From a virus, in IMG/VR virus record IMGVR_UViG_3300045257_000500, positions 1-22,060 of that record: DNA of 22,060 nucleotides. One strand, given 5' to 3'. The notes below the pieces were generated by a model. It had not been told where the DNA came from. It worked only from the letters and a program-made list of their open reading frames with translations, and searched no databases. A program made the position numbers and the translations under genes. This document shows, piece by piece, positions 1 through 17,546 of the stretch (positions within the stretch are counted from its first letter, which is position 1; each line of letters opens with the position of its first letter).

Positions 1-636
1 CTGCCGGGTCGGCGTCGCAGCGGTGTAGACGTTCGCTTCATCAATAGAGCCCTGGAAGAAGTTGCTGGCTCCTCCATCGGCCGCGCCGATGCAGAACGGC
101 AGCGCGTTTCTGGTGATGGTCTGCGCCGTCGTCGGCCCGGTGACGTCTGAGCCGTTGATGTAGATCTTGTACGGATTGATCGTGACCGCGACATGAGTTC
201 TGGCGTTTAGCGGGACGGTTCCGAGGGACGTACAGATGTTCCCCACACTGTTGACTCGCAGGAGAAGCGTTCCGTCGAGCGAGGAGGCGAAGAGCAGGAT
301 CAGCTCTCTCGCCCCGCCGTCCATTACGCAACCGCCAAGGTTGGATCTGTCTCTATAGGACGTCGCGAAGATCCAGGCCTCGAAGCCACCCTGAGTCAGG
401 ACGCTAATCTCGGGGCGGTTGGCGACCGAGACGTACCCGTCGATGCCGTTGAAGAGCGCCGCGCCGTCAGCATCCGACTCGACCAGGCTTGCCTGCCCGA
501 ACGTGACACCGCCTCTGACCGTGCCGGCCGCGCCGCCGATCGCGTCGGCGGCCGCCGTCGAGGCAACCGCATCGCCCAGGCGGAAGCGGGCCGATGGAGA
601 GTCCGCGAGGACTTCTTCGTTCCACCCGTAGCCCAT
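1..636 (-). CDS. LamG/concanavalin-like tail protein, partial (C-terminus outside window)
   Basis: Open frame of 212 codons from an ATG at 636 that continues past the left edge. Translation begins MGYGWNEEVLADS. It contains the succession typical of LamG/concanavalin-like jellyroll domains: FNGIDGYVSVANRPE near residues 73-87, then GGFEAWIFAT, a strand pair around LLLRVNS, HVAVTINPYKIYINGSDV, and SIDEANVY near the window edge. These match the usual LamG pattern (entry strand, H-V-A-V-T, Y-I-N-G, I-D-E-x-x-x-Y). Such domains in phage tail proteins bind carbohydrate or trimerise receptor-binding fibres. The gene starts three bases after the stop of the upstream tail-appendage gene, so it belongs to the same operon. 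Fold call is from motif reading; the ligand is unknown. Confidence 0.72.
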   Translation of the reverse strand, partial: MGYGWNEEVLADSPSARFRLGDAVASTAAADAIGGAAGTVRGGVTFGQASLVESDADGAALFNGIDGYVSVANRPEISVLTQGGFEAWIFATSYRDRSNLGGCVMDGGARELILLFASSLDGTLLLRVNSVGNICTSLGTVPLNARTHVAVTINPYKIYINGSDVTGPTTAQTITRNALPFCIGAADGGASNFFQGSIDEANVYTAATPTRQ

Positions 637-1126: not shown

Positions 1127-1585
1127 TCAGCGCTGGCGGCGCTGTTTCGCGGTCACGCGGATGCGCGCGCCGCGGTAGAGCTTCTTGTCGATCTGGACGC
1201 CGACGTAGCGGATATTGCCGATCTCTGAGCTTGCGCCGACACCGCCGAGCGTGATATTTGCCCGCAACGTCAAGCGCGCGGCCTGCGCCCACTGGAGGAG
1301 CTTGCGGTAGCCGGGCAGCTCGTAGTAGCTGGTCCCGGTGGTCTGGGTGGCGTCGCCGTACTGGAGCGGGTCATCGACGATCAGCAGGTCGATCGTGTAG
1401 GTGTCGTCGTCGACCCCGTTGGGGCCGCTGGAGATCGGCTTTGCGACATCGTCGTAGGCGATGATGAGCCCGAAGGGCCAGCCGGGCGGTGCGCCCATGC
1501 CGATATCGCCGAGGACCCAGAAGATGCCTCTTGTGCCTGGGTCTGTGGAGAGGTAGGTGGCGAGCGTGTCGAGGTACGCTTCCAT
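1127..1585 (-). CDS. Putative tail terminator protein
   Basis: 152 residues, ATG at 1585 starting immediately after the upstream TAG. It begins MEAYLDTLATYLSTDPGTRG, has a mixed alpha/beta pattern with TYTIDLLIVDDPLQYG in the middle, and ends in a basic tail (RVTAKQRRQR). Size, an N-terminal helix followed by strands, and position right after a gp10/gpS-type completion protein fit the lambda gpU-like tail terminator family, which caps the tail tube and joins it to the head. No diagnostic catalytic motif exists for this family, so the call rests on size and synteny. Confidence 0.5.
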   Translation of the reverse strand: MEAYLDTLATYLSTDPGTRGIFWVLGDIGMGAPPGWPFGLIIAYDDVAKPISSGPNGVDDDTYTIDLLIVDDPLQYGDATQTTGTSYYELPGYRKLLQWAQAARLTLRANITLGGVGASSEIGNIRYVGVQIDKKLYRGARIRVTAKQRRQR

Positions 1586-1732
1586 CTACGGTTTCACCAC
1601 CTTCATTACGGTGATCGTTGCCGCACCGGACCTGACCTGCTGGATGACGGGGGCGATCAGGTCGAGTCGTAGGCACTCGGTACCGAGCCGCTCACAGTGC
1701 GAGCAGCGGCCCTCAGGGCAGCGGCCGGTCAC
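1586..1732 (-). CDS. 48-residue Cys-motif (zinc knuckle-like) protein
   Basis: GTG start at 1732 overlaps the stop of the upstream gene in a GTGA arrangement, and its TAG at 1586-1588 abuts the ATG of the next gene. Residues 4-17 hold a C-P-E-G-R-C-S-H-C-E-R-L-G-T-E-C cluster, compatible with one small zinc site, followed by a short hydrophobic strand and a basic end. Both boundaries fit the translational coupling used throughout this operon, which supports it being a real gene rather than a spacer. Function unknown; a tiny Cys protein between two tail-joining genes is unusual. Confidence 0.55.
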   Translation of the reverse strand: MTGRCPEGRCSHCERLGTECLRLDLIAPVIQQVRSGAATITVMKVVKP

Positions 1733-2223
1733 CGGATGCGGATGATCGAGTCGCCAAGGATCCGCTTCACCTGACCTTCGAGGCGGTCGTCGATGATGAA
1801 GATCGGCCGTGCGGGCAGGTTGCCGCCGTCGTGGATCGTGCCGTACTGGTGCAGGTAGGGGATCTGCCAGCCGTCCTCGTCCCAGTCGATGCCGATGACG
1901 GCACGTTGGTGGTCGATGACCTGGAAGCTGTAGGGGCCGTCTGGGGAAGTCGCGGATTCGTACAGCGCGCCGGTTTCGTAGAGAGGCCGCATTGGCTCGG
2001 GGTAGCCGGCGGCCTGCTTGTGAGCGACCGTAGAGTCCGCGAGCGGCGGCCACGCGAACAGCATGCTTCCGCCGTCCTGACCCCACGCGTCGAGGTGCTC
2101 GCGGGTGCGGTCGTAGACGGCCGCGACGACCTCCTCGAGCGCCGGTCTCATGCCGGCGAGGTTGCGCACAACGTGGTCGATGAGTGCGAGGGCAGCGGTG
2201 TCCTCGACGATGACGTTAATCAT
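1729..2223 (-). CDS. Phage virion morphogenesis / tail completion protein (gpS or HK97 gp10-like)
   Basis: 164 residues, ATG at 2223 overlapping the upstream TAA. The middle contains PMRPLYETGALYESATS (about residues 77-93), the P-L-x-x-T-G-x-L-x-x-S signature of phage tail completion/virion morphogenesis proteins, followed by a beta segment with VIGIDWDEDGWQIPYLHQYG and then RPIFIIDDRL. In the family this protein helps join tail to head. Length and the H-x-G/R-P-x-F-type ending are normal for it. Neighbours (connector upstream, tail terminator downstream) agree. Confidence 0.72.
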   Translation of the reverse strand: MINVIVEDTAALALIDHVVRNLAGMRPALEEVVAAVYDRTREHLDAWGQDGGSMLFAWPPLADSTVAHKQAAGYPEPMRPLYETGALYESATSPDGPYSFQVIDHQRAVIGIDWDEDGWQIPYLHQYGTIHDGGNLPARPIFIIDDRLEGQVKRILGDSIIRIR

Positions 2224-2554
2224 CGCGCAGCTCCGTGCAGAACACTTCGGTGTGCAGTACGCCGAGGGATCTGTAGTCGCGGACGCCGTCGACGCCGTAG
2301 CGGTGCGCGACGACCTGCCCGGAGTTCGTCACGCGCCGCCCGGTTCGCAGCTCGTCCTCGGTGCGCAGCAGTCGGGCGTGGGTGCGAGGCACGAAGACGA
2401 TATGTGTCGAGCGCCGAGCGTAGTCGGGCAGCCCGTCGAAGCTGGAGATCGGGACGCGCAGGGACGGGACGTTGCGGTAGAGCAAGGTCACAATGCGTCT
2501 GGGACTGGTCGAGGGGATGCGCCACACCTCGCAGCGCTCCGTGAGCCGGATCAC
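2216..2554 (-). CDS. Putative head-tail connector/stopper protein
   Basis: 112 residues from a GTG at 2554 that overlaps the stop of the preceding gene (GTGA). Starts MIRLTERCEVWRIPSTSPRR and continues with a beta-rich region (TLLYRNVPSLRVPISSF, THIVFVPRTH) and VTNSGQVVAHRYGVDGVRDY near the C-terminus. A small, strand-rich protein beginning with a reference to a field equation-like R-x-x-x-W-R and ending with Y-x-V-x-x-V-R-D-Y is the usual look of SPP1 gp16-type head closure proteins (inference). Followed directly by the tail completion gene, which is the normal order. Confidence 0.55.
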   Translation of the reverse strand: MIRLTERCEVWRIPSTSPRRIVTLLYRNVPSLRVPISSFDGLPDYARRSTHIVFVPRTHARLLRTEDELRTGRRVTNSGQVVAHRYGVDGVRDYRSLGVLHTEVFCTELRDD

Positions 2555-2811
2555 GTTGGAATGCTCGTGATCCGACCGGAGGCGGCAAGCAACGCGACCG
2601 CAGCGTTGAGCCGGTCCGGTGTCGTCGGCGTAGCAGTGTCCGTCCCCCACTGGCCTTCGGCCCACAGCGACAGCGAGTTCGCGTCGCACCACGGGTGCTG
2701 GGAGAGGTGGGCGTAGACGGCGTTCGCGTCGGCGAGCCGGGCGGCGATCTCGTCAGGTGTGCCGGTCAGGCTGAGGTTCTGGAGCTGGGTGTCGGTGAGA
2801 TAGCTCGTCAT
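2551..2811 (-). CDS. Small protein at the head-tail connector position
   Basis: 86 residues, ATG at 2811 in an ATGA overlap with the last glycosyltransferase gene. Begins MTSYLTDTQLQNLSLTGTPD and is mostly helical, with one tryptophan-rich segment (SLSLWAEGQWG). No domain is recognised. It is the first gene after the glycosyltransferase cassette and precedes the connector and tail completion genes, so a structural joining role is likely but not shown by the sequence. Confidence 0.55.
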   Translation of the reverse strand: MTSYLTDTQLQNLSLTGTPDEIAARLADANAVYAHLSQHPWCDANSLSLWAEGQWGTDTATPTTPDRLNAAVALLAASGRITSIPT

Positions 2812-3509
2812 GGCAGCTCCGGCGTCGGGATGAGCGTGGGTTCGCCGACGATCGAGTCGATGTGGCTGCGGCTGTGGAACTCGCCGCCGTCCTGCATGAC
2901 GTAGAACGCGTGCTTGACCGGCCGGTCATGCGGGCGGGCGTAACCCCAGTGCAGGCAGCGAAACGGCGACTCGGCGTCAGGGCAGGCCGGGTCTGCGATG
3001 GGTGGCGTGGGAAGACAGGCGAGCTTGCGGTCCGGGATCCGCGCACCCCCGTGATGGCGGTAGATGCGGTATCCGCGCGCGGGTGCCCAACCTCCATCCA
3101 CGCGGATGACCGAACCGTCGGGTGCCCACACATGCTCAAAGAGGACGGGCCAACGGCCGTAGCGTTCGTCGAAATAGGCAGCACGGAGATCGCCGACCGG
3201 GTTGCCATGCAGGCCGGTGCCGACAAGCTGCTCGTCGGCGTCAAGCGCGACGACAACGTCACCATCGGAGAGATGCTCATCGCACAGCTCCATGAGCTGG
3301 TTGCGGACCCAGCTCTCCGCCTCCCGGTAGCGGGACGTCTCGCCGTACTCGACGACGACGTCTCGGGCGTCGAGGGCATCGAGGGTGTCGTGGTCGACGC
3401 CGTCGGCGTAGACGAGGAGCAGGTCCGCCCACCGGTCCGCGAGCCGCAGTACCCGGTCGAGGTGGCGATGGCCTTCACCAGCGCCGACGACCATCGCGCA
3501 GCAGACCAT
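2808..3509 (-). CDS. Glycosyltransferase, GT-A fold (third of cassette)
   Basis: 233 residues with ATG at 3509 in a TGATG overlap with the upstream glycosyltransferase. It has a hydrophobic strand at residues 28-35, an acidic strand VVVALDADEQL near residue 86 (D-A-D-E being the DxD-like metal/nucleotide-sugar site of GT2-type enzymes) and a late LHWGYARPHDRPVKHAFYVM region. This is the layout of the glycosyltransferase family seen in phage and bacterial polysaccharide loci, where the enzyme moves a sugar from a nucleotide donor to an acceptor. Substrate cannot be told. Its differing sequence shows it is not a simple copy of the two neighbours. Confidence 0.68.
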   Translation of the reverse strand: MVCCAMVVGAGEGHRHLDRVLRLADRWADLLLVYADGVDHDTLDALDARDVVVEYGETSRYREAESWVRNQLMELCDEHLSDGDVVVALDADEQLVGTGLHGNPVGDLRAAYFDERYGRWPVLFEHVWAPDGSVIRVDGGWAPARGYRIYRHHGGARIPDRKLACLPTPPIADPACPDAESPFRCLHWGYARPHDRPVKHAFYVMQDGGEFHSRSHIDSIVGEPTLIPTPELP

Positions 3510-4177
3510 CAGTCGCACTCGATTCCGCGCTCGGCACAGGCTGCCCGGAAGATCTGCCGGGAGCGGGCGGCGAGCGTCACCTTCTCCGCGGTCGGAAGAC
3601 CCGAGCTGTCCCACAAGTGCTCCCACGTCACGCTGCCGGTGTAGACGACGCGGTAGCCGGCGTGACGGGCGGCGTACGAGCAGAAGGTCTCCTCGTAGTA
3701 CATGCGGTCGGTTTCGAGGAAGCCGCCGAGTTCGTCCCAGACCACGCGGCGCGCGAAGTACACCGAGCCGGCAACGGTGACTGCGTCTCTGGAATCGCGC
3801 GTCTCATCGTCGTGCTCGTCGAGCGGCGCTAGCCACAGACGGTGCTCGGGCCGTGTGTTCGTGCCGAAGATGCCGGCGGCGGTCAGGCGCCCCTCGTCGT
3901 CCACCTGGCGGGGACCGATAACGCCGATCGAAGGGTCCGAGGCGAACAGGTCGACGATCGGCTGCTGGCTCTCCAGACGGCGCGTGTCCGCATTCAGCAG
4001 CAGCACGTACGGAGCGGAGCCAAGCGACGCGCCGTAGTTGCACGACTCGGCGTAGCTCCAGCCGCGCGCTTTGGCGTCGATCATGGTGATGGTCGAGATG
4101 AGCGGGTCGTCGAGGGAGGCGACGCACCGTTCGGCGAGCTCGGGCGTGTCCCAGTCGACCACCGTCACGTCGATCAT
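3509..4177 (-). CDS. Glycosyltransferase family 2-like (second of cassette)
   Basis: 222 residues; ATG at 4177 chosen because it overlaps the upstream stop (ATGA). The frame is open further upstream, but that part overlaps the preceding gene. Features: N-terminal strand MIDVTVVDWDTPELAERC, the strand YVLLLNADTRRLES at residues 57-70 carrying the N-A-D-T nucleotide-sugar site, then IGVIGPRQVDDEGRL and VAGSVYFARRVVWDELGGF, and finally YYEETFCSYAARHAGYRVVY with the acidic pair expected for the catalytic base. This order matches rhamnosyltransferase/O-antigen-type GT2 enzymes. Clear family call, unknown sugar and acceptor. Confidence 0.82.
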   Translation of the reverse strand: MIDVTVVDWDTPELAERCVASLDDPLISTITMIDAKARGWSYAESCNYGASLGSAPYVLLLNADTRRLESQQPIVDLFASDPSIGVIGPRQVDDEGRLTAAGIFGTNTRPEHRLWLAPLDEHDDETRDSRDAVTVAGSVYFARRVVWDELGGFLETDRMYYEETFCSYAARHAGYRVVYTGSVTWEHLWDSSGLPTAEKVTLAARSRQIFRAACAERGIECD

Positions 4178-4899
4178 GTGGCCTCCAGGTAGGCGGGAAG
4201 GTCTTGCTCGGACCACACGTGCGTGGCTTCCAGGCCGGTGTCCCAGGCGCATCTAAGTCCGTGGGCGTGGAGGTCTTGGGCGTAGCCGATGTCCTCGCCG
4301 CTCTCGTGGTTGCGGTAGCGGCACTGGAGTGCCCTGGGCCCGAGGAGGGTGACGGCCATCGGCACCTGGATCTGCACCGTCTCCCCCGACTCGGCGATCT
4401 CGCGATCAGGGCGGTACCACGACTGCGTCTCCCCCTGGCCGAGGCCGAGCATCCCGGCGTTGAACGCCCACGACCCTTTGCCGACGGGGTGCAGCCACGT
4501 GATCGCCGAGGCCGTGTCCCACCCCTGCTCGAGCAGATCTTCGAGCCGGTCGATCGTTCGCGGGTCGTCGAGCATCACGTCGGTGTCGAGCGACAGCAGG
4601 GCATCCGCGCCCATCTTCCGGACGGTTTCCAGCAGCAGGTTGCGGACGGTCGCGAGCGTCTTGAAGCGGGCGTTGTCGTGGCGTGCGTGTGGCGCAGCCG
4701 GGTGATGCCTGAGCGCGACGGGCCGGAAGCCTCGAAGTGCCGCCTCATGCTGGATCGTCGTCCACGTCTCGTCGTGCGCGACCCCGGAGTGGATGAACGC
4801 GAACCCGTCGGGCTGACGCGTCTGCCGGGCCAGCCGTTCGAACCAGGTGGGAAGCGCCCAGGCGCGCAAGGCGACGGGAGCGCCGATTACGATTCTCAT
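4174..4899 (-). CDS. Glycosyltransferase-like protein, GT-A fold (first of cassette)
   Basis: 241 residues from an ATG at 4899 with a GAGG SD about five bases upstream. N-terminal strand MRIVIGAPVALRAWALPTWF, a helix with RNLLLETVRKMGADALLSLD leading into D-T-D (residues 105-107), an ITWLHPVGKGSWAFNAGMLG segment, then GEDIGYAQDLHAHGLRCAWD and ATHVW close to the C-terminus. D-x-D, the late E-D and the histidine are the arrangement of metal-dependent GT-A glycosyltransferases. It opens the three-gene cassette and starts only 23 bases from a plus-strand gene, so its promoter, if separate, must lie inside a neighbouring gene. Confidence 0.72.
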   Translation of the reverse strand: MRIVIGAPVALRAWALPTWFERLARQTRQPDGFAFIHSGVAHDETWTTIQHEAALRGFRPVALRHHPAAPHARHDNARFKTLATVRNLLLETVRKMGADALLSLDTDVMLDDPRTIDRLEDLLEQGWDTASAITWLHPVGKGSWAFNAGMLGLGQGETQSWYRPDREIAESGETVQIQVPMAVTLLGPRALQCRYRNHESGEDIGYAQDLHAHGLRCAWDTGLEATHVWSEQDLPAYLEAT

Positions 4900-4922
4900 T
4901 CAACCTCGCGCCAGGAGTGGAG

Positions 4923-5159
4923 ATGATTCGAAGCACGGATGAAACGTGGATCGTCGGTATCGATTCCGATCCCGGCAGTTCCATCGAGTTCGCGACCGAG
5001 GGGCAGGCGGTGGACTATGCGCGCGAGCGGGCGAGCGATGGGCAGGCATGCGCAGTGATGCACCGTCGCGACGCCCTCACATCGGGAGCGGAAGTGCTCA
5101 CGATGGTCGCCTACTTCGAGCCAGCTAGCGCATCGGCTGGTACTGCGAGAACCCGATAG
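4923..5159 (+). CDS. Small plus-strand orphan gene (moron-like), function unknown
   Basis: 78 residues from ATG at 4923, with an AGGAG SD about seven bases upstream (a GTG six bases earlier is less well placed). The protein opens MIRSTDETWIVGIDSDPGSS, then has a helix with EGQAVDYARERASDG and a strand ACAVMHRRD, a pattern that recalls DUF2188-type small proteins (weak resemblance). It is the only plus-strand gene in the structural block, is divergent from the first glycosyltransferase by 23 bases and overlaps the end of the minus-strand connector gene by 35 bases. The minus-strand frames beneath it are arginine-rich and lack any recognisable protein character, which favours the plus strand. 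Confidence 0.6.
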   Translation: MIRSTDETWIVGIDSDPGSSIEFATEGQAVDYARERASDGQACAVMHRRDALTSGAEVLTMVAYFEPASASAGTARTR

Positions 5160-5793
5160 AGCTGAGATCCATGCCGGGGGCTGCGGTCTGGTCGGCGCGC
5201 GTCCAGTAGCGTCTGCTCGCGGCAGCGGCCGAAGTCTCGAACGACTGGGCTTGGGCGGCGTACTGTCTCGCGAGCGCCGACAATCTCGCCTCCGCCTCCC
5301 CCGCTCGCACGTCGGCGAGCGAGCACTTGCGGGCCATCGCCGCGCAGGCGAGCGACGCGGCATAGTCGATCAGCGCCGGCATCAGGCCGTCCGGCACGGT
5401 CGTAAGGTCCGGGTAGGCGTTGAGGCCGCCGAGCCACCCTCGAGCGCGGTCGACGAAGTCCGCGATGTCGGCGTCCATGAAGTACTGCCACTGATAGGTG
5501 ACCAGCAGCGACGACACCGGAGCGGTCGGCAGGACGAACGTGCCGTTGACATCCACGTCCGATCTCGGCCCGACGCCGACGCCTCCGTCGATGTAGGCGA
5601 GCAGCGTGCCGGGGACGGCGAAGACGGTGACGTACTGCTCCGTCGGCACCGAGCTGAAGCGGACGTAGAAGCTCGACTGCGTCGGCGTCGCCTGCGCAGG
5701 GATCTCGTCGGAGAGATCCTCTTGGCGCACCAAGTTGTAGCCGGGGCCGTCCTGGATCAGCCGGCGAACGGAGTCTGTCGCCGCAGCCGCCAT
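5125..5793 (-). CDS. Putative head-tail connector/adaptor protein
   Basis: 222 residues, ATG at 5793, three bases after the upstream TAA. N-terminal part has alternating strands (SSFYVRFSSVPTEQYVTVFA, TFVLPTAPVSSLLVTYQW); the second half is helical, including FVDRARGWLGGLNAYPDLTT and MPALIDYAASLACAAMARKC, followed by an alanine-rich helix with SALARQYAAQAQSFETSAAA. Helical proteins of this size behind the capsid gene commonly serve as the first connector ring under the portal. The assignment is from position and secondary-structure impression. Its 3' end is overlapped by a convergent plus-strand gene. Confidence 0.55.
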   Translation of the reverse strand: MAAAATDSVRRLIQDGPGYNLVRQEDLSDEIPAQATPTQSSFYVRFSSVPTEQYVTVFAVPGTLLAYIDGGVGVGPRSDVDVNGTFVLPTAPVSSLLVTYQWQYFMDADIADFVDRARGWLGGLNAYPDLTTVPDGLMPALIDYAASLACAAMARKCSLADVRAGEAEARLSALARQYAAQAQSFETSAAAASRRYWTRADQTAAPGMDLSSIGFSQYQPMR

Positions 5794-5796
5794 CGC

Positions 5797-6243
5797 TTAT
5801 GCGGCAGCTTTCGGCGGGCGACCGCGTCGAGCTGCAACGACCGTCGGCTCCGAGCTGGGCTTGGACACGGGGGCCGGGCAGAGCTGAGCGCCGATCGCCT
5901 CAGCGTCGTGAACGTCGGTGAGGGCCACGTAGCGGTGACCGTGCTCGGCACACCATTGCGTCTTGAACGCGCACCGCTTCGCCATGCGCTGGCCCTGACG
6001 CTCGACCTCACTGGCGCCGTCGAGGACGTCGATCAGCAGCCCGGCCTCGTAGTAGAAGCGGTCGAAGCGCTCCGGCGCGAGCCGGAACCCGTCGTCGAAG
6101 TGCTGCTCGCAGCCGTCGAGGACGTACCGGGCGACGTAGCCGGTCGAGCCGACCGCTTCGGAGATCGGGTCGGCCTGCGTCAGATCCGGGCTCTCGGCTT
6201 CGGGGTCGAAGAGGTCTTCGCCGATGACGAGCGTGTCGGTCAT
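5797..6243 (-). CDS. Unrecognised head-region protein with AT-hook-like tail
   Basis: 148 residues; ATG at 6243 overlaps the stop of the upstream gene (ATGA). Begins MTDTLVIGEDLFDPEAESPD; the centre has YVLDGCEQHFDDGFRLAPER and FKTQWCAEHGHRYVALTDV. The last residues ARRGRPPKAAA contain a G-R-P core flanked by basic residues, like an AT-hook, which is also common as a disordered basic end in phage proteins. No domain is recognised. Longer upstream frames in the same phase are out of step with the preceding gene and were not used as start. Confidence 0.6.
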   Translation of the reverse strand: MTDTLVIGEDLFDPEAESPDLTQADPISEAVGSTGYVARYVLDGCEQHFDDGFRLAPERFDRFYYEAGLLIDVLDGASEVERQGQRMAKRCAFKTQWCAEHGHRYVALTDVHDAEAIGAQLCPAPVSKPSSEPTVVAARRGRPPKAAA

Positions 6244-6737
6244 GGTGCTCCCTGGTCGAGGCGTGCGGTTGGAATGTCGGCGTCCATCATGTGGCGACCG
6301 TCGGCAGGGTCGGAGCCGAGGATCGCGGCGTGCTTGGCGAGCAGCTTGCGCATCGTGCTGATCTCGGCCTCGGAAAGCAGCGCACCGGATTGCACTCTGC
6401 GGAGCATCGCGAGCGCCTGCTGGTTCTCGAGGTTCGGCGATCCGGTCTGCGCCTGCTCCTCCAGCGCTCCGTAGAGCTCCTGGAGCTCGCGGACGGTCTG
6501 CTGGTCCTGGTAGTAGATGCTGCCGCTGGGGGTTGTGTAGCTGCCTTCCTCCAGGTCCGCGAGCTGTGGCTGCTCTTGCTGCTCGTGGGTCTGGAAGGCC
6601 CGCAGGAGCCGCGCGAGCTGCTCGACCTGGACGACGCCGACGTCGTCTCCTTCTGCCTGCTCCTCTCCCCAGAGCACGCCGAGGTCGGCGAACGCTTGGC
6701 TGATCTGCCACTGGTCGGCTTCGCGAAGCGCGCTCAT
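6240..6737 (-). CDS. Unrecognised glutamine-rich head-region protein
   Basis: 165 residues from ATG at 6737, with an AAAGGA SD about nine bases upstream. The frame is open further 5', but that part is the non-coding structured spacer after the capsid gene. The protein is helical and Gln/Glu-rich (RLLRAFQTHEQQEQPQLADL, LQELYGALEEQAQTGSPNLE) and ends GRHMMDADIPTARLDQGAP. No family recognised. Position directly after the major capsid protein suggests a head-completion or internal capsid protein. Probably expressed at a lower level than capsid if the intervening fold acts on the mRNA. Confidence 0.6.
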   Translation of the reverse strand: MSALREADQWQISQAFADLGVLWGEEQAEGDDVGVVQVEQLARLLRAFQTHEQQEQPQLADLEEGSYTTPSGSIYYQDQQTVRELQELYGALEEQAQTGSPNLENQQALAMLRRVQSGALLSEAEISTMRKLLAKHAAILGSDPADGRHMMDADIPTARLDQGAP

Positions 6738-6758
6738 GGGCGGGGTCCTTTCGAGAGT

Positions 6759-6820
6759 GGCGGACGGGGATTCGAACCCCGGCGTGTCCCTGGTGAGGGG
6801 CACGCACCCCGTGTCCCGCC
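6759..6820 (-). other. tRNA-like RNA fold (acceptor + D-like + T arm, no anticodon arm)
   Basis: On the minus strand, 6781-6765 reads CGGGGTTCGAATCCCCG, a perfect T-arm with the canonical TTCGAAT loop. The following GTCCGCC pairs with GGCGG-G-AC at 6820-6813 (seven pairs, one bulged G), an acceptor-like stem. Between them is GGGGTGCGTGCCCC (6810-6797), a D-arm-like hairpin. Only about 15 bases remain for the anticodon region, so it is not a functional tRNA. GGGACACG occurs twice in it (6817-6810 and 6790-6783). It fills the spacer between capsid and the next gene. Could be a decayed phage tRNA, a processing or stability hairpin, or a relic of integration into a tRNA gene. Confidence 0.45.
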
Positions 6821-6830
6821 GGTTGCTGCT

Positions 6831-7907
6831 TTAGTTGCCGCGGAACCCGAAGCTGGAGTCCAGGACGCCGGCGTTGAAGCGGCGACGCACGCGGTAGCGG
6901 TAGGTGTCGGTGTTGAACGCCTGGCCGCTGTTCGGCGCCTCCATCGCGACCTCCAGCGGGTCGCGGTCCTGAAGGACCGCGGCCTTCCGGGCCTCGAGCA
7001 GCAGCCACGCACCGGTCGTGTTGTCCAGGCCGGTGACGAACGCCTTGGCGAGGTAACGACTCACCTTGAGGTCGTAGAGGCCCTGGAGCGGATTGAACGT
7101 GTTGACGTAGCCGGTGCCGCCAGAGCCGGCGGTCGACGCCGTCTGACCGGAGGCGCCGGGCACGGACGGCTGGAGCGCGGACTGGAGCAGCTTGGCGGCG
7201 TTGAACTTGTTCTCGGGGCCGACGAGCAGCGTGTTGGGCTGCACGAGGTACAGGTTCCCGAGCGGGTCCTTGATCGTCTGGAGAGCGATGTCGGCGGCCT
7301 CCAGCGACGGCTGGGTGAGATCCGACCCGCTGCCTCTGTTGCCGACGTTGCCGATCGTGGTCGTGTAGCCCTTGGCGCCGCCGGCGACGATCGCGTTCAT
7401 GACCGTCTGCTCCTCGTAGATCCGGGTGCGCTCGCCCTGTTGCGCGGCCCGGACCTGGATCTGGCCGGTCTGGTCGTCGTCGATCAGCTCGCGCTCGATG
7501 CCGATGACCCGCCCGACCTTGACGTTCTTCAGGCGGATGTCCTGGCCGATCAGGCGCGAGTCCTCGAACGGCTGCCCAGGGTCGACCTGGCGCGGCATCT
7601 CCGGCCCGTACAGGGGCGCGTACAGCTCCTCGTACTTATTCGAGGTGACGACGCGCACGACGTCGGGAAAGACGACCTCGACCTGCGCGTAGGCGTCGAA
7701 CAGCCATTGCTGCACTCCGGCACGAAGGAGCTGCGGCATCGCCGACTCTGACGTCGCCTCGCGGAGCTTTCGGACGTTCAGCGTGGGGTCCTTCCAGTCG
7801 AGCGCGTCCGAGAAGCCGCTGATGCCGACGGCACGGTCAGCCTCCCGGAACGCCTGCTGGCGCGCCTCGTCGAGGTGCTTGGCCTCGATCTCTCGAAGGG
7901 TCTTCAT
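6831..7907 (-). CDS. Major capsid protein
   Basis: 358 residues from ATG at 7907 with an AGGAG SD. N-terminal helical part MKTLREIEAKHLDEARQQAF, then RKLREATSESAMPQLLRAGV, an E-loop-like acidic/basic stretch around YGPEMPRQVDPGQPFEDSRL, the spine-helix region NAIVAGGAKGYTTTIGN and a C-terminal segment with DPLEVAMEAPNSGQAFNTDT followed by YRYRVRRRFNAGVLDSSFGF. The ending is the usual one for HK97-fold capsid proteins of phages with a protease-scaffold fusion upstream. It lies directly after the decoration protein, as expected. It forms the icosahedral shell after scaffold release. Subfamily not resolved. Confidence 0.82.
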   Translation of the reverse strand: MKTLREIEAKHLDEARQQAFREADRAVGISGFSDALDWKDPTLNVRKLREATSESAMPQLLRAGVQQWLFDAYAQVEVVFPDVVRVVTSNKYEELYAPLYGPEMPRQVDPGQPFEDSRLIGQDIRLKNVKVGRVIGIERELIDDDQTGQIQVRAAQQGERTRIYEEQTVMNAIVAGGAKGYTTTIGNVGNRGSGSDLTQPSLEAADIALQTIKDPLGNLYLVQPNTLLVGPENKFNAAKLLQSALQPSVPGASGQTASTAGSGGTGYVNTFNPLQGLYDLKVSRYLAKAFVTGLDNTTGAWLLLEARKAAVLQDRDPLEVAMEAPNSGQAFNTDTYRYRVRRRFNAGVLDSSFGFRGN

Positions 7908-7916
7908 GGCATGCTC

Positions 7917-8423
7917 CTAGAGGGCCGCAGCGGCGACATGGTTGGGGGCGAGGATCACCCGGATGCGGACGCCGGGTCCGCCGGTGACGAACTCGGGGGC
8001 CGGGGTGGCCTGATGTGGCCGGGCCGTCGCAGGTGCCTCGATCACGACGTAGCCGATCGTCTGGTTGGAGCCGACGCCGGTGTTCGTGATCGTCTGGCTG
8101 TCGGCTCCGACGGTGACTCTGTCGAACGGCAGATAGGTGTCGCCGGCCGTGGTGTTCATCTCGACGGGGGCACGGGCCTCGACCTCGATGCCGGGGCTGG
8201 CGGCGTCGCCGCCGAAGACCGCGACCTGGTTCGACTGCATGGCGACGCCCAGGAAGTTCGTGCCGTTGAGCTGGCTCTTGTTCGTCAGTGGCGTGACGGA
8301 GTAGTTCGTGCCGTCCCAGTAGACGAAGTCGCCCTGGTTGATCGTCTGGTCGGACGTGACCGGGAGCGCCTTCGGGAACCGGTTGCGGTTCTCGGAGAGG
8401 ACGACGTTCTGTGCGGTGGTCAT
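7917..8423 (-). CDS. Head decoration-like protein (DUF2190 type)
   Basis: 168 residues from ATG at 8423; SD-rich upstream (GAGGAGGAG). The protein begins MTTAQNVVLSENRNRFPKAL and has VTSDQTINQGDFVYWDGTNY, FLGVAMQSNQVAVFGG, then strand-rich repeats with YLPFDRVTVGADSQTITNTG and a hydrophobic end. The pattern (intrinsic start tag, I-x-x-G-D, L-G-V-A, internal strands) is that of small beta-barrel capsid-stabilising proteins found immediately before major capsid genes. They bind the outer capsid surface after expansion. Good family likeness, medium certainty on exact type. Confidence 0.68.
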   Translation of the reverse strand: MTTAQNVVLSENRNRFPKALPVTSDQTINQGDFVYWDGTNYSVTPLTNKSQLNGTNFLGVAMQSNQVAVFGGDAASPGIEVEARAPVEMNTTAGDTYLPFDRVTVGADSQTITNTGVGSNQTIGYVVIEAPATARPHQATPAPEFVTGGPGVRIRVILAPNHVAAAAL

Positions 8424-8426
8424 TGG

Positions 8427-9035
8427 CTACTCCTCCTCGGCCTTGACGGGGAGGCCGGCGGCGACCAGGCGCGCCTTCGCGTCGCCTTCGCCTGCGGGGA
8501 CGCGGGCGGCGAAGCCCTCGACCCCGGTGAACGCCTCGCGGACGTGCGCGATCGTGATCTCGCGCTCCTTTGTCTTGCGCTCGAGCAGCCGTCTCATGGC
8601 CGGCTCGTCGTCACACTTGACGACGTCGTCGAACCACAGCTCGGCGAGCTCCTTCGGCACCTCCCCCTCGCGGAGGACCCGGCCGGCGGTGATGGCCCGC
8701 TCGGTCGCGGTCAGCTTGCCCTTGGCGTCGTCCCGCTCGGTGCGGGCCTCGTCGCGCTCGCCGATCGCTGCGTCGCGGGCCGTCTCGGCCTCACGCAGCT
8801 TGGTGGCGAGCTGGTCCTTCTCGTCGTCGGACGCGGCTACGGGCTTCTCGATGATCTTCTCGACCTCGCGAAGCTCGACCTCGACCTCGATCTCGGCCGT
8901 AGCGACCTCGTCGATGATCGCGAAAGCCTCACGCAGCGTCGCCTCGGCACCGGTCTCGTCGGCGCCTTCTCTGGTGGCCTCGCGGAACTTTGCCTGCGCG
9001 GCCTTGATCTTCTCCTGCATCTCGGCAGGCTTCAT
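8427..9035 (-). CDS. Nested in-frame scaffold protein (internal start)
   Basis: Methionine 268 of the protease-scaffold fusion (ATG at 9035) is preceded by AAGGAGGT (9047-9040), a near-perfect SD with about five bases of spacing. Such a site inside an open frame is unlikely by chance. The resulting 202-residue protein begins MKPAEMQEKIKAAQAKFREA and consists of the coiled-coil scaffold alone (REVEKIIEKPVAASDDEKDQ, then KLREAETARDAA). The design equals lambda C/Nu3 and several other phages in which scaffold is made in excess of protease from an internal start. The start is seen in the sequence; the product's function is inference from that precedent. Confidence 0.7.
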   Translation of the reverse strand: MKPAEMQEKIKAAQAKFREATREGADETGAEATLREAFAIIDEVATAEIEVEVELREVEKIIEKPVAASDDEKDQLATKLREAETARDAAIGERDEARTERDDAKGKLTATERAITAGRVLREGEVPKELAELWFDDVVKCDDEPAMRRLLERKTKEREITIAHVREAFTGVEGFAARVPAGEGDAKARLVAAGLPVKAEEE

Positions 9036-9827
9036 GCGTACCTCCTTGGAGGCGTTGTGATGACCCGGCCGCGTGGCAGGGTTCAACTGGCGACAGCTCT
9101 CGGTGAGCCGGCGAAGGAAGACGCCGCCCGCACCAGGACTGGTGACGAGGTCGGCGGAAGGGAGGTGGCGGACCTCCCGGACGAAGTTCACCTGGCGGCC
9201 GTCGGGAAGCTGGCCTGGCTCGACCACCCCGCCGCCGTCGATGCTGATCCCGGCCAGGGGCCGGTCGGTGCTTGAGCCGGCTGAGATCGCGGCCTCGACG
9301 AGAGACACGACCCACTCGTAGCCGGCGCCGGCGATCGGCACGAATGTCGCACGGACCTGGCCGACACCCGCGTCTTGGACGTAGCGCGCTTCGCGGTAGT
9401 GGCCGACGAGCTGGCGGACGTCGCGCTCGGGGCGTTGGCGTTCCTCGTCCTGGGTCGGATGGTTCGCGTACGCCTTCAGGCCCTCGAACATGCCGTCGCT
9501 GACGGCCTTCTGGAGCGCCTCGCGGGTGTAGTAGTTGCCGTCCGCCGGGTTGCCGAGGCCCTCGCGGATGATCGTGACCTCGTAGGTGCGCTCGCCGGTC
9601 TTCTCGACGCGCATCTCGCGCAGCCTGGTGAGGAGCTTCAATTGGACCGGTTCGGCCTCCCGCGCGGGCTTCGCCTTGGTCGGCTTCTTGCCGTCGGACT
9701 CGGGCTTGTCGTCGGTGCTCTCCTCCGGATCCTCCGTCTCGTCCTCTTCATCGCCGCGCAGGAGCTGCGGGTTCGCTGAGGCGGACGTGGACTCGCGGAG
9801 TCGTCGTGCGAGCAGGGGAAGTCGCAT
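8427..9827 (-). CDS. Prohead protease fused to scaffold protein
   Basis: 466 residues from ATG at 9827; an ATG nine bases earlier (9836) touches the AAGGA and so lacks a spaced SD, while 9827 has AAGGA about eight bases upstream. Counting from 9836: protease domain about 80-245 with YANHP (H126 candidate catalytic), PLAGISIDGGG (S198 candidate nucleophile) and HLPSADLVTSPGAGGVFLRR (224-243), the S-x-D-x-V-T-x-P-G-A-G-G signature seen in T4 gp21-like prohead proteases. From residue 268 a long charged coiled-coil scaffold follows, with KLREAETARDAAIGERDEAR and a C-terminal region KAEEE. The enzyme cleaves scaffold and capsid during maturation. A strong internal SD marks a second product. Confidence 0.8.
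   Translation of the reverse strand: MRLPLLARRLRESTSASANPQLLRGDEEDETEDPEESTDDKPESDGKKPTKAKPAREAEPVQLKLLTRLREMRVEKTGERTYEVTIIREGLGNPADGNYYTREALQKAVSDGMFEGLKAYANHPTQDEERQRPERDVRQLVGHYREARYVQDAGVGQVRATFVPIAGAGYEWVVSLVEAAISAGSSTDRPLAGISIDGGGVVEPGQLPDGRQVNFVREVRHLPSADLVTSPGAGGVFLRRLTESCRQLNPATRPGHHNASKEVRMKPAEMQEKIKAAQAKFREATREGADETGAEATLREAFAIIDEVATAEIEVEVELREVEKIIEKPVAASDDEKDQLATKLREAETARDAAIGERDEARTERDDAKGKLTATERAITAGRVLREGEVPKELAELWFDDVVKCDDEPAMRRLLERKTKEREITIAHVREAFTGVEGFAARVPAGEGDAKARLVAAGLPVKAEEE
9040..9047 (-). promoter_or_regulatory. Strong internal Shine-Dalgarno for nested scaffold
   Basis: AAGGAGGT on the minus strand, ending five bases before an in-frame ATG, within the coding region of the protease-scaffold gene. 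It is among the best SD matches in the window and fixes the start of the free scaffold protein. Confidence 0.75.
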
Positions 9828-9868
9828 AGGCGGCATCCTTCGTATGGGGCCGCCCGTGGGCGGCGAGG

Positions 9869-10102
9869 TCAGACGGTGATGCGGTGCACCACGTAGTTCA
9901 TCCCGGCCGCGAAGATCACGTCGTCGTCCAGCTCACGCGGTTCGACGCCTCTTGACGCGGCGTACTCGTCGAACGCTTCGACAAGGTCCTCGACGGCCTG
10001 AAGAATGTTCGGGAGGGCGATCAGGTCGGCGAGGCGCTTGGTGCGGTCGATCATCCAGCCGGCCTCGCCATAGCGGGAGCGGCCCACGGCGATGGCCGTC
10101 AT
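9869..10102 (-). CDS. Small unrecognised helical protein
   Basis: 77 residues, ATG at 10102 overlapping the upstream stop (ATGA). Helical: KRLADLIALPNILQAVEDLV, then EAFDEYAASRGVEPRELDDD, ending GMNYVVHRITV. The frame is open upstream but that part is the reverse reading of the previous gene. Sits between the minor-head region and the protease-scaffold gene. No family recognised; may assist procapsid assembly by position. Confidence 0.55.
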   Translation of the reverse strand: MTAIAVGRSRYGEAGWMIDRTKRLADLIALPNILQAVEDLVEAFDEYAASRGVEPRELDDDVIFAAGMNYVVHRITV

Positions 10103-10443
10103 CGGGCCTGCGCCTCTCTGCCTTTGCCGGCGTAAAGCACCGAGAAGACGTGCCCGAGTCCGCACCGAGCTTCGATCGCGTAGCCGTCCTCGTAGAGGAC
10201 GTGCTCGATTCTCCACCCGCAGAGCGGACAACGCTCCTGCGGGATGCCGTCCTTGACGATCGCCGCGACCGTCTCGACCTCGTCGAGTGCGCGCTGGACG
10301 TGGCGGTAAGCGGGCCCGTCGACCCTGAGCAGGAGCGCCTCCAGGGAGATGCGCGCTCGCTCCGCCAGTTCCGCCGTCTTGAGGTGGCCGAGCTCCGCGC
10401 CCTCGGCGACGTGTCCGAGCGTGATCGGGCGGACGCGACTCAC
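10099..10443 (-). CDS. Zn-knuckle-like small protein
   Basis: 114 residues, GTG at 10443 overlapping the upstream TGA (GTGA); the longer open frame upstream is out of phase with a coding neighbour and was rejected. Residues include a helical first half (HLKTAELAERARISLEALLL, then VQRALDEVETVAAIVKDGIP) and then CPLCGWRIEHVLYEDGYAIE with a further Cys in ARCGLGHVF. The C-x-x-C plus later C/H is compatible with a single treble-clef-like zinc site. Role unknown, operon membership clear from the coupled start. Confidence 0.6.
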   Translation of the reverse strand: MSRVRPITLGHVAEGAELGHLKTAELAERARISLEALLLRVDGPAYRHVQRALDEVETVAAIVKDGIPQERCPLCGWRIEHVLYEDGYAIEARCGLGHVFSVLYAGKGREAQAR

Positions 10444-10697
10444 TGCGCGATCCTTTGCACGAACCCTTCGGCGTTGAGCGTTGGCCGCTCGAACCGGATC
10501 TTGCCGAGGTCCGCTGTCGAGATGCAGCGCTCCTCGGCGTGCAGGTCGATCGCGTTGAGGAACTTGCGGACGGCCATGCTCGTGGCCGGGCACGCTTCGA
10601 GACGGCGCGCGAGCCGCTGCCGGCGTCGGTAGAGCGCGCCCAAAGCGTTCGCGTCCTGTTCGAAGCCGATGCGAAGGTCCGGTCCGGTGTGGCTCAC
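10440..10697 (-). CDS. Small unrecognised protein downstream of minor head gene
   Basis: 85 residues from GTG at 10697, chosen because GAGGAGGG lies six bases upstream. An ATG at 10718 in ATGA overlap with the minor head gene is the alternative (92 residues). Begins MSHTGPDLRIGFEQDANALG and has a basic helix RRRQRLARRLEAC followed by MAVRKFLNAIDLHAEERCIS and LGKIRFERPTLNAEGFVQRI. No domain recognised. Confidence 0.55.
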   Translation of the reverse strand: MSHTGPDLRIGFEQDANALGALYRRRQRLARRLEACPATSMAVRKFLNAIDLHAEERCISTADLGKIRFERPTLNAEGFVQRIAQ

Positions 10698-10714
10698 GCC
10701 AGCCCTCCTCGTGG

Positions 10715-11464
10715 TCATGCGGCGATCTTGTCGGCGATCCGGCCGACCAGCGCGTTCTCGCCGGCGTTCAGCACGTACAGCGTGTCGCCCTCGTTCAGCG
10801 CCGAGGTCGCTTCAAGCGAGCAGCGGCAGCCCTGTTCGCAGATCGTTCCGCCCGCGCCTGGTGTCGTCGGCCAGTCTTCTGCGGGCATCGGCGGCAGGTT
10901 GCCGAGGTCCATGCAGTCGTCGCAGACTCGATCGTCGTCCTCGGTCTGCCATTCCAGGAGCTGCCCGTCCGCATCGGCGGCCTGCGCGTACCCGTCCTGC
11001 TCGCCAGCCCAGGCGACAGACTCGCCGAGGTTGAGCCGATAGCTGTTCGACTCGATCCAGTCTTGCAACGCGAGCCCGAGCGCGTAGACGCCCATGCTGG
11101 CAGCGGCAAGCCCCCCCGCGCTGACCGCTTTCTGTGCCGCGTCGAGCTGCTGCTGTGACGGGGCGAGCGTGGACAGCTCGAACGTCATCCGATCAACAGA
11201 CCGGAGTGCTGGGCCGGTCGCGCGCGCCACCCGTCTCGGGTCCGGCACCGTCGGCGCCACGTAGGGCTGCTGCCGGCGACGCAGGAGCGGCAGCACGATC
11301 ACGTGGTGTCTGTCCTGTTGCTGCTGGTCCGGGGGCGCTGGCGGGGGCGGGTCGTCGTCCGGCTCGTAGCCGTCGACCCCGGCCTGCCACGCTCTCAGGT
11401 AGGTCGTGTGGATCAGGTCCCGCTGGGTTCTGCGGAAGCGATGGATCGCATGCGGATGGAGCAC
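10715..11464 (-). CDS. Phage head morphogenesis / minor capsid protein (Mu F-like)
   Basis: 249 residues from GTG at 11464, one base after the upstream TGA; the open frame extends 180 bases further but overlaps a coupled upstream gene. N-terminal helix begins MLHPHAIHRFRRTQRDLIHT; a proline/glutamine-rich insert (DDDPPPPAPPDQQQQDRHH) follows; a helical middle with LALQDWIESNSYRLNL precedes the hallmark DRVCDDCMDLGNLPPMPAED, then ICEQGCRCSLEA. C-x-x-C followed by C-x-x-x-C-R-C is the signature of Mu F/SPP1 gp7-type minor head proteins, which bind the portal and take part in DNA ejection. Position right after portal fits. The family usually has 250-300 residues. Confidence 0.75.
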   Translation of the reverse strand: MLHPHAIHRFRRTQRDLIHTTYLRAWQAGVDGYEPDDDPPPPAPPDQQQQDRHHVIVLPLLRRRQQPYVAPTVPDPRRVARATGPALRSVDRMTFELSTLAPSQQQLDAAQKAVSAGGLAAASMGVYALGLALQDWIESNSYRLNLGESVAWAGEQDGYAQAADADGQLLEWQTEDDDRVCDDCMDLGNLPPMPAEDWPTTPGAGGTICEQGCRCSLEATSALNEGDTLYVLNAGENALVGRIADKIAA

Positions 11465-11465
11465 G

Positions 11466-11765
11466 TCACGCCGCCGACCGTCGGGGCAGTCCTCGCGGCT
11501 TCGGCGGCGGGAGGATGGGTGACGCGAAGGCCCGATCTCTCGCGGCCTCAAACGCGGCCCACGCCTCTCGGCGCTCCCGGAGCTTCCAGGGCCGCAATCC
11601 GCGCCAGCGTCGCCACCAGAAACGTGCGGACTCGACGGCGTCACGGTCGGTGTGCGCCTCGATCGCAGTCAAGTGGCACGGCTGCCAACCGCCTCCGTTG
11701 CAGCCGTGACCAAGGGGGCAGCATCTCCGGCCCCGGTCGCGCGCTGTGAGTCTGCCGTCGGTCAT
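11466..11765 (-). CDS. Small Cys/Trp-rich protein between portal and minor head genes
   Basis: 99 residues, ATG at 11765 in ATGA overlap with the portal stop. A cluster C-C-P-L-G-H-G-C-N-G-G-G-W-Q-P-C-H occurs at residues 15-31, followed by HTDRDAVESARFWWRRWRGL and a basic/proline end. The motif could hold one zinc. The C-P-L-G-H-G-C spacing is unusual. No family recognised. Its position between portal and minor head gene recurs as a hot spot for tiny genes in actinophages (general knowledge). Confidence 0.5.
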   Translation of the reverse strand: MTDGRLTARDRGRRCCPLGHGCNGGGWQPCHLTAIEAHTDRDAVESARFWWRRWRGLRPWKLRERREAWAAFEAARDRAFASPILPPPKPRGLPRRSAA

Positions 11766-13741
11766 GCCGCCCCCGTCACGAGCTGATCCAGGTTGTCTCT
11801 CGTCGCCGACCGGAACTCCCCCGCGTGCTTCGCGAACTCGGGATCATCAGGGCGACGTCGTGGCTTGCGTGCCTCGCGCGCCGCCTCGCGGATCACAGCA
11901 TGCAGTTGGCTTTCCGGCAGGACGACGAGGCGCTCTCTCATCTGGTTGTCCTTGCGGATGTTCGCCGCGCCTGCCTGGGAGGCCGGGTTCTCGTCGGCGG
12001 GGAAGCCGGCGCGTGAGGTCGGTGATGCTGGGTCCGTCGGATCGGAACCAGTGCCGCCGGCAGGCACCAGCAACCCCGGAGGCTGGTCTTCGTCGACCGG
12101 CTCCTTCGTCGGGTCGAGCATCGCCGCCTGACGATTCGACGCGGCGATCACGAACCGGCGGATTCTGCCGTCGCCCGCTCTGCCAGCGGTGGCCCACTCC
12201 TCCGCGATCAGGTCCTGTTCCTCGTCCGGGTCGTAGGTGGTGATCCCCAGCTCGTTCGCAACCGCGGCCCGGTAGGTCTTGTCGGCTATGACGCCGTTCG
12301 CGCGTGCGGTCGTGAGGTCGGCGATCTTCGCCTGGCGGTCCTCGGTGACGATGCCGGGGAACGTGAACTCGCGCTTGCGCTGATCCTCGCCGGTGATGCC
12401 GGCGGTGTCGAGTACACGGTCGGCCATCTTGTGCAGCAGCCGCTCGAGCACCTTCTGGCGGCGCTCGAAACGCTTCGCTGCCGGCTCTGTCGCAACCAAG
12501 GCGGTGGCGCGTCCACCCTTGCTGTCGATCCCGAGGTACTGCTTCGGGACACCGACGCCGGTGGCGATCAAGTTGATCAGTTCTTGGACGACGTCCTCGA
12601 CACCGGTCTCGCTGGTGGACTGCCACTGGAACGGGGAGAGGTCGACCTGCTGGTTGTGCGCGAGGTAGGAGCCCGGCGGGGGCTGCTTGCCGTTCGGGAA
12701 CATTTGACGGCCCAGCGCCGCAGCTTCCTGCGCCGTCCCCTCCACTTTGAGATCGAGCACCATTCGCGACAGCAGGTCCTGGCGGATCACGTGCGACGTC
12801 ATCAGGTCCCGCAGCCGCTTGAAGTAGCCAAGCGCCGAGAACAGGTCCGACCGGCCGCGTTTCTCAGCGGAGCGCACGTTGATCTTGACGTGATCGATCT
12901 CCTGCGCGGGGATTTGCCGGATCACGTACTTCGCGACCGTGTTCTGCGTCGGCCCCGTCGGCGCCCTGTTAGCAGCCGGCGGCGCGTACAGCTCGTATGG
13001 CGTCTGGTACTGCTGGTGGTAGAAGTAGACGGTCTCGATGTCTTCCTGGTCAGTGACGATCTCGTAGATCGACGCCGGGTCAATCGACCGGATGGCGATC
13101 CTGCCGGCCGGCAGCGGGAAGTAGCGGACCATCACCTCGCCGAACGTGGAGAGGTCACCGTCGATCTCCTCGAGGCGGCCGTCCATCTCGTTCTCGGACC
13201 AGAACCTATCCCACGCCTCCTGGGCGCGATCATCGGCGAATGACGCTTCGATACCGCGGCCGAGGACGAACTCGGTTGTGGTCTCTACGGCACGGTGTGC
13301 GACGGGGTCGTGCGACGCGCACTCGAAGCACTTCGCTGACATGGCGAAGTAGTCGGACCAGTAGAGCTGGCGTGTTGCCGGCCCCGGCAGCAGCGGAATG
13401 TATTGGTCGAAGATCTGCGGCTGGCCACCCGGCATCCAGCCGCCGCCGGACGCGAACCAGTCGGATTCGCGCATGCCGGCCTCGCGGAGCATCGCGGTCG
13501 CGGTGCGCTTCAGGCTGCCGAGCTGCTGGCGGGACGCGAAGCGCTTCACCTCATGCGAGCGCAGCCGGCCGTGCTCGGTGAACCGGCCACGCCACAACGA
13601 CCCTGAGATCGAGTAGCTCCTAGGGAGCCGCTCGGGATCCGGGCAGACCTCGTAGCGGGACCAGTCGTACGGATCGTGCGAGGGGTCGTAGTCGTGCTCG
13701 TAGGCCGCCAGAACCTGGCCCCAGATTCTGCTAGGCGGCAT
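11762..13741 (-). CDS. Portal protein
   Basis: 659 residues, ATG at 13741 overlapping the end of the upstream small gene by 11 bases. Recognisable elements: AVETTTEFVLGRGIEASFAD near residue 150, DLSTFGEVMVRYFPLP and AIRSIDPASIYEIVTDQEDI (clip/stem strands), then HVIRQDLLSRMVLDLKVEGT (wing), and INLIATGVGVPKQYLGIDSK near residue 400, the conserved G-V-P-x-x-x-L-G-I loop before the crown, followed by a long charged C-terminal helix and disordered tail. The portal forms the dodecameric gate through which TerL pumps DNA and seeds procapsid assembly. Length is in the upper normal range due to the C-terminal tail. Confidence 0.85.
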   Translation of the reverse strand: MPPSRIWGQVLAAYEHDYDPSHDPYDWSRYEVCPDPERLPRSYSISGSLWRGRFTEHGRLRSHEVKRFASRQQLGSLKRTATAMLREAGMRESDWFASGGGWMPGGQPQIFDQYIPLLPGPATRQLYWSDYFAMSAKCFECASHDPVAHRAVETTTEFVLGRGIEASFADDRAQEAWDRFWSENEMDGRLEEIDGDLSTFGEVMVRYFPLPAGRIAIRSIDPASIYEIVTDQEDIETVYFYHQQYQTPYELYAPPAANRAPTGPTQNTVAKYVIRQIPAQEIDHVKINVRSAEKRGRSDLFSALGYFKRLRDLMTSHVIRQDLLSRMVLDLKVEGTAQEAAALGRQMFPNGKQPPPGSYLAHNQQVDLSPFQWQSTSETGVEDVVQELINLIATGVGVPKQYLGIDSKGGRATALVATEPAAKRFERRQKVLERLLHKMADRVLDTAGITGEDQRKREFTFPGIVTEDRQAKIADLTTARANGVIADKTYRAAVANELGITTYDPDEEQDLIAEEWATAGRAGDGRIRRFVIAASNRQAAMLDPTKEPVDEDQPPGLLVPAGGTGSDPTDPASPTSRAGFPADENPASQAGAANIRKDNQMRERLVVLPESQLHAVIREAAREARKPRRRPDDPEFAKHAGEFRSATRDNLDQLVTGAA

Positions 13742-13964
13742 GCCAGCCGATCAGGTTGCGGCGATGCAGCGCCTCGGTAGTGGCCGGAGCCCGTTCGCCG
13801 TAGTTCTCGATCCCTTCGTCCGTCACAACGCTCAGGACGACGCGGTCGGGCTTGATGCTGACGACCTCGGCCCGACAGCGCTGCTGCCAGCAGACGAGGA
13901 TGTCTCCGGGGAGAAGCGTCGCCATCCGAAAGCGGTGGCGGATCCGTCGCAATTTGCGTCGCAT
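13731..13964 (-). CDS. Small basic protein between terminase and portal
   Basis: 77 residues from ATG at 13964 (GGGAG SD six bases upstream, formed by the TAG of the terminase gene and the following bases). N-terminus strongly basic (MRRKLRRIRHRFRMATLL), then an SH3-like strand pattern PGDILVCWQQRCRAEVVSIK and DRVVLSVVTDEGIENYG. A longer frame upstream lies inside the terminase gene and is rejected. Function unknown; a small beta-barrel with a nucleic-acid-binding arm is a guess from composition. Confidence 0.55.
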   Translation of the reverse strand: MRRKLRRIRHRFRMATLLPGDILVCWQQRCRAEVVSIKPDRVVLSVVTDEGIENYGERAPATTEALHRRNLIGWHAA

Positions 13965-13974
13965 GCGGCTCTCC

Positions 13975-16147: not shown

Positions 16148-16154
16148 GGGGTCC

Positions 16155-17300: not shown

Positions 17301-17331
17301 TGGCCGTCCTCCGGGATTGGTTGGAAGTGGT

Positions 17332-17398
17332 CTGCCCCTCGGACGGCTCTCGTGGCTGGCCGGTCGGAGCGAGAACGAGAGCGCGACCGAGGGGGCAG
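17332..17398. repeat. Large imperfect inverted repeat in the late-operon leader
   Basis: CTGCCCCTCGG (17332-17342) faces CCGAGGGGGCAG (17387-17398), eleven pairs with one extra G. Inside it GCTCTCGT (17346-17353) is perfectly complementary to ACGAGAGC (17375-17382), with two further C-G pairs between the two helices and a 21-base loop. It ends 32 bases before the ATG of the glycoside hydrolase gene. No run of T follows on either strand, so it does not look like an ordinary intrinsic terminator. It could form in the late mRNA leader or serve as a binding site in DNA. Confidence 0.5.
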
Positions 17399-17402
17399 TG
17401 GG

Positions 17403-17507
17403 AGCGGGCTCTACCACTCCGTGTCGGTCCAGTACCTCCAGAGATACCTGGACGAGTACACATTCCGGTACAACCACCGGAACTCGCGGACGCCGATGTT
17501 CGGTAGT
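17403..17507 (+). pseudogene. Remnant of IS1595/ISXO2-like transposase C-terminus
   Basis: Translating the plus strand in the frame with codons at positions divisible by three gives SGLYHSVSVQYLQRYLDEYT followed by FRYNHRNSRTPMF. Y-H-S-V-S-x-x-Y-L-x-R-Y-x-x-E-(Y/F)-x-F-R-Y-N-H-R is the end of the DDE domain of IS1595-family (ISXO2-like) transposases. Nothing of the catalytic N-terminal part is visible upstream; there the frame runs over the inverted repeat and then antisense to the hydrolase gene. Therefore a fragment of about 33 codons, left after insertion and deletion or brought in with the regulator genes. The family call is from memory of the motif. Confidence 0.6.
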
Positions 17508-17546
17508 GGGTCAGTTTGGTATCGACCCGTCGCGTGCTCTACGGCC

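Follow-up and report, generated by a model that had tools for sequence, protein, structure and literature searches.

Three unlike glycosyltransferase genes inside the head operon of an uncultured phage form a putative virion glycosylation cassette

Gene order around the cassette

The window analysed here is a 22,060-base stretch of an IMG/VR virus record; the virus is uncultured and known from sequence. Its minus strand carries a candidate small terminase gene followed by genes for the terminase large subunit, the portal, a protease candidate, the capsid cement/decoration protein (7917..8423; PF09956, E=3.5e-6) and the major capsid protein (MCP, 6831..7907; phrog_371, E=4e-20), the latter two being candidate glycan acceptors. 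Two small genes and a post-capsid connector candidate (5125-5793) come next, and behind them, on the same strand, lie three glycosyltransferase genes: GT1 (4174..4899, 241 aa), a GT-A-type enzyme similar to COLGALT1 and Anp1, GT2 (3509..4177, 222 aa), a member of the GT2 family, and GT3 (2808..3509, 233 aa), a GmaR-like enzyme of Glyco_tranf_2_4 type. The minus strand then continues with a gene for an 86-aa protein (2551..2811), a candidate head-tail stopper (2216..2554), a tail completion/Neck1 protein (1729..2223; phrog_26, E=5e-7), which makes the downstream flank, and a tail-completion candidate (1127-1585). Two small genes later the contig ends inside a protein with a Laminin_G_3/concanavalin A-like lectin domain (1-636, minus strand, E=1.6e-13).

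The original prediction that three unlike GT-A-type genes separate the connector candidate from the next connector genes was thus correct, including their coordinates. The neighbours are also as originally given, with one addition, a DUF2188 gene (4917..5159) that lies on the plus strand between the connector and GT1, exceeds the PF09954 cut-off (E=5e-5) and may be a passenger. The connector candidate gave no match of its own in profile searches, and the stopper candidate, also lacking a profile match, is proposed from its position and from a codon-position pattern of substitutions, which runs in another frame. The window by itself does not establish a siphovirus: no tail tube or tape measure was recognised in it ahead of the lectin-domain protein, and it ends before any tape-measure gene, but the tail region of a related contig, beyond the window's reach, contains a 2107-aa ORF that is probably the tape measure. 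At the other end of the late genes, beside the small terminase gene, a minus-strand protein (16155-17477) has glycoside-hydrolase-like motifs EIGNE and TEYG seen by eye; it is conserved in the closest relative and has neither a Pfam nor a PDB match. Upstream of the late genes two adjoining plus-strand ORFs (17500-18300) resemble, judged by eye, helix-turn-helix regulators of the XRE type.

Start and stop codons overlap at four consecutive junctions, GT1/GT2 (ATGA), GT2/GT3 (TGATG), GT3/86-aa gene (ATGA) and 86-aa gene/stopper candidate, where the GTG start overlaps the preceding stop. The translational coupling originally suggested fits the overlapping frames of the window, but in the nearest related contig, IMGVR_UViG_3300050821_023990 (L005), which served as the reference for dN/dS estimates, GT1 and GT2 are 209 bp apart, so close coupling of the two does not hold throughout. 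This 209-bp stretch (L005 13734-13942) is absent from the window. All three glycosyltransferase genes are under purifying selection, with dN/dS against L005 of 0.11 for GT1, 0.12 for GT2 and 0.19 for GT3 and similar values for the flanking structural genes; conserved to this degree, they are not chance ORFs. By composition the cassette is not marked as foreign. Homologues of the 86-aa gene occur near the cassette on the opposite strand in two other contigs (L176 14411-14746 and L185 11674-11994). Across positions 4853-5172 the window agrees with L005 at all 320 bp, against about 93% identity in the rest of that stretch; this run spans the start of GT1, the DUF2188 gene (240 nt identical) and the end of the connector. 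The expected number of such runs is about 1e-8 to 3e-8 at 92.6-93% identity and about 0.01 if identity is locally 97%, and recent recombination or a constrained element are the candidate readings of it.

Identity of the three enzymes

GT1, GT2 and GT3 are mutually unrelated by sequence, since their pairwise scores fall within the shuffled range. Taken alone, the window proteins produced only weak Pfam glycosyltransferase matches below curated cut-offs (CAP59 with E=0.047 for GT1, PF13632 with E=9e-5 for GT2 and PF13704 with E=0.0026 for GT3), and NCBIfam gave no match. Their homologues are more informative. For GT2, a homologue in contig L121 matches PF00535 with E=3e-10, and relatives of this protein lie above the PF00535 cut-off; for GT3, homologues gave E=4e-13 and 3e-10, and relatives exceed the cut-offs of both PF13704 and PF00535. 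Because homologues pass the family cut-offs, the identity of GT2 and GT3 is settled. A GT1 homologue (L100) matches Anp1 with E=9e-6, below the Anp1 cut-off. Membership in the GT-A clan was thus found with homologues for GT2 and GT3 and by matches to solved structures, while GT1 homologues stayed below the Pfam cut-off.

The structure matches were obtained by using the family alignments (A5 for GT1, A7 for GT2, A6 for GT3) as profiles against PDB entries. The GT1 family matches procollagen galactosyltransferase 1 (E=5e-8), the GT2 family chondroitin synthase, TarP and TagF, and the GT3 family GmaR (E=7e-15) together with SunS and similar enzymes. Metal-binding motifs of the DxD type are invariant in the family alignments (D105/D107 in GT1, N62/D64 in GT2, D90/D92 in GT3), GT1 has in addition GED at 201-203, GT2 carries NAD at 62-64 and EET at 162-164, and the GT3 motif reads DADE (90-93). 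AlphaFold models made from two sequences were too poor for use (pLDDT 36-39); a fold search with them gave no match at E<=0.001, and its matches were disregarded.

GmaR uses flagellin as acceptor, the substrate of SunS is a peptide and that of COLGALT1 is collagen, so that two of the three families, GT3 and GT1, point to protein acceptors. TarP is a wall-teichoic-acid transferase. The likeness of GmaR, SunS and procollagen galactosyltransferase 1 to the GT3 and GT1 families is at the profile level, and these enzymes differ from the phage proteins in that they serve cells or bacteriocin production and modify other acceptors. In a title cited in PMC3150276 GmaR is called an O-GlcNAc transferase, and the TPR and antirepressor domains which that source mentions for GmaR are absent from GT3.

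Placement and co-inheritance in other phages

The cassette occupies the same site, after the same connector gene, in L005, L175 and L176, whose MCPs are 92%, 52% and 59% identical to that of the window and which have structural genes in common with it; the downstream neck genes are also present in L005 and L176. The site itself is not closed. In L176 the interval from GT2 to GT3 (9747-12980) contains ORFs that look by eye like an epimerase of the NAD-dependent/nucleotide-sugar type, a GT17-like and a GT2-like glycosyltransferase, and extra genes are found at the cassette site of L175 as well. In Glutamicibacter phage BIM BV-113, which is more distantly related but still has recognisable head genes, the head-tail genes are contiguous and the cassette is missing. 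Synteny could not be traced through terminase relatives because their head genes are unrelated. Homologues of GT1-GT3 were absent from all 80 terminase-related loci.

With single window proteins, or with the first GT2 alignment used in pattern scans, only a near-identical relative was found. Family profiles reached much further. The GT3 profile detected 75 additional viral contigs, about half of which have GT2 homologues, usually upstream of GT3. The GT1 profile detected L005 and 11 other viral contigs (L178 and L179, both counted here, look like near-duplicates), and in these a GT2 homologue lies nearby in 11/11 cases and a GT3 homologue in 10/11, the one exception being L175, which ends before GT3, inside GT2. 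In L185, where GT3 was seen with the family profile, the cassette genes are more spread out. Most contigs keep the order GT1-GT2-GT3, with GT2-GT3-GT1 in L178/L179 and L181. Distance matrices of the families, compared over nine complete sets, are correlated (Mantel r 0.70-0.84, p<=0.0004), to which shared phage ancestry of some contigs may add. From the co-occurrence of the three genes and their correlated distances, the cassette is conserved and co-inherited, passed on as one block in phages that are otherwise unrelated.

Outside the connector site the settings are diverse. The cassette stands upstream of terminase in L100 (0.7 kb) and L143 (4.5 kb) and before large ORFs resembling by eye tail fibres in L178 and L181; in L132 and L139 GT3 homologues are flanked by the terminase and portal genes. 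In the L121 type, a large group of contigs, GT2 and GT3 homologues are placed between thymidylate synthase and helicase, and in L121 itself (1159-16391) they are surrounded by genes for ribonucleotide reductase, thymidylate synthase, helicase, primase and polymerase; the ORF layout of L116 is similar.

Cellular genomes were also searched. A portal-based scan of genome contigs yielded a single match, a false one on the antisense strand of an RND-transporter gene (L089). In 396 and 296 genomes of the L089 phylum, which may not be that of the host, two-row profiles of GT1 and GT3 gave no match, and a wider GT1 profile gave only weak matches in 4 of 246 genomes. These searches thus give no indication of a recent capture from a host in the phylum covered.

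Possible function of the cassette

Glycosylation of capsid and tail tube has been published for mycobacteriophages. In cluster O mycobacteriophages one O-methyltransferase gene and three glycosyltransferase genes occupy the interval from portal to protease (PMC4351075), and Corndog of this cluster (gp35 O-methyltransferase, gp36-gp38 glycosyltransferases) likewise has three adjacent unlike glycosyltransferases inside the head operon; the genes overlap in its counterpart Krili. It differs from the present locus in the portal-protease position and in the accompanying methyltransferase. Corndog cassette proteins were detected in infected cells and not identified in purified virions, and capsid modification was proposed (PMC4351075). 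Che8 (cluster F1) likewise has three tandem overlapping glycosyltransferases, gp108-gp110, and capsid glycosylation is reported for it (PMC12363180, PMC11256854), but its genes are at the right genome end, outside the head operon, and encode enzymes of GT25 and GT2+methyltransferase types. According to PMC12363180, which cites Freeman 2023, gp38 of Corndog and gp110 of Che8 are indispensable for glycosylation of the capsid, and the same source credits virion glycosylation in mycobacteriophages with shielding particles from antibodies. When GT1-GT3 were compared by phmmer with Che8 gp108-110, and with the proteins of Krili that correspond to Corndog gp35-38, scores stayed at background, so no homology is detectable. 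In Caudovirales GX15bay (MK557849) adjoining homologues of GT2 (35% identity, tblastn) and GT3 (27%) stand about 5 kb upstream of terminase; this phage, also uncultured, differs in having a larger cluster with a methyltransferase, and a GT1 homologue was not found in it. With the Corndog and Che8 precedents, the originally suggested novelty does not hold for the kind of system, which is already known; judged by homology searches, the novelty lies in the enzyme set, which is distinct, co-inherited and of wide distribution, and in its different site among the head genes.

Taken together, the data make it probable that the cassette is a late, three-enzyme system glycosylating one or more virion proteins. 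This reading is best supported owing to the location of the genes within the co-directional head operon, which ties them to virion genes, the stable placement, and the profile matches to protein glycosyltransferases. Against it we count the L121-type setting, the likeness of GT2 to TarP and non-homology to the proven Che8 and Corndog enzymes.

The second of these points, with the match to TagF, would suit an alteration of wall or surface glycans of the host that blocks superinfection or changes serotype, and temperate phages do use glycosyltransferases for host-surface modification. Yet GT1, GT2 and GT3 have no transmembrane segment (maximal KD19 1.10), no flippase-like partner was seen among annotated neighbours, so that neither membrane anchoring nor a flippase of Gtr type was found, and the three genes overlap in the middle of the late operon, at a site kept across the lineage; we regard such a role as unlikely. 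Somewhat less probable still is attachment of sugars to hypermodified bases protecting phage DNA. Phage glycosyltransferases acting on DNA are known, as cited in PMC12619734, and the L121-type genes adjoin those of thymidylate synthase, ribonucleotide reductase and replication. However, a PF00303 gene of the thymidylate synthase/dCMP hydroxymethylase type was found in 0/12 cassette records, many of them fragments, while the control matched, and both the head operon placement and the matches to protein glycosyltransferases speak against DNA as the substrate. A search for Tet/JBP matched nothing, not even its control, and therefore carries no weight. The site gains other genes, such as DUF2188 here and the extra ones in L175 and L176, and the 209-bp insertion parts GT1 from GT2 in L005, as would be expected of passenger morons that occupy a tolerated insertion site and have no virion role; purifying selection on all three genes and their co-inheritance across contigs make this the least probable of the alternatives.

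For virion protein glycosylation, then, the timing, the acceptor, the sugars, the order of action and the benefit are what we infer as follows. GT3, similar to GmaR and SunS, would most likely act first, linking a sugar to Ser/Thr or to some other side chain in an acceptor such as a capsid, cement or tail protein, and GT2 and GT1 would lengthen the glycan or add branches to it. The host or, in relatives with the epimerase-like gene, the extra genes of the cassette could supply the nucleotide sugars. The benefit might be, for example, shielding or altered adsorption. In its widest form, that GT1-GT2-GT3 constitute a widespread co-inherited phage protein-glycosylation pathway, started by a GmaR-like enzyme and extended by a COLGALT-like one, which arose independently of the mycobacteriophage enzymes and operates in otherwise unrelated uncultured phages, the proposal is tentative, and we give it slightly less than even credence.

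So far virion glycosylation is established for no more than a handful of mycobacteriophages. If the cassette does serve this purpose, it is a second enzyme set, unrelated to the first, and phages must have arrived at virion glycosylation on more than one occasion; its recurrence as one unit in environmental phages of diverse kinds would also imply a use where no antibody exists. The GT1, GT2 and GT3 families would then become searchable markers for virion glycosylation.
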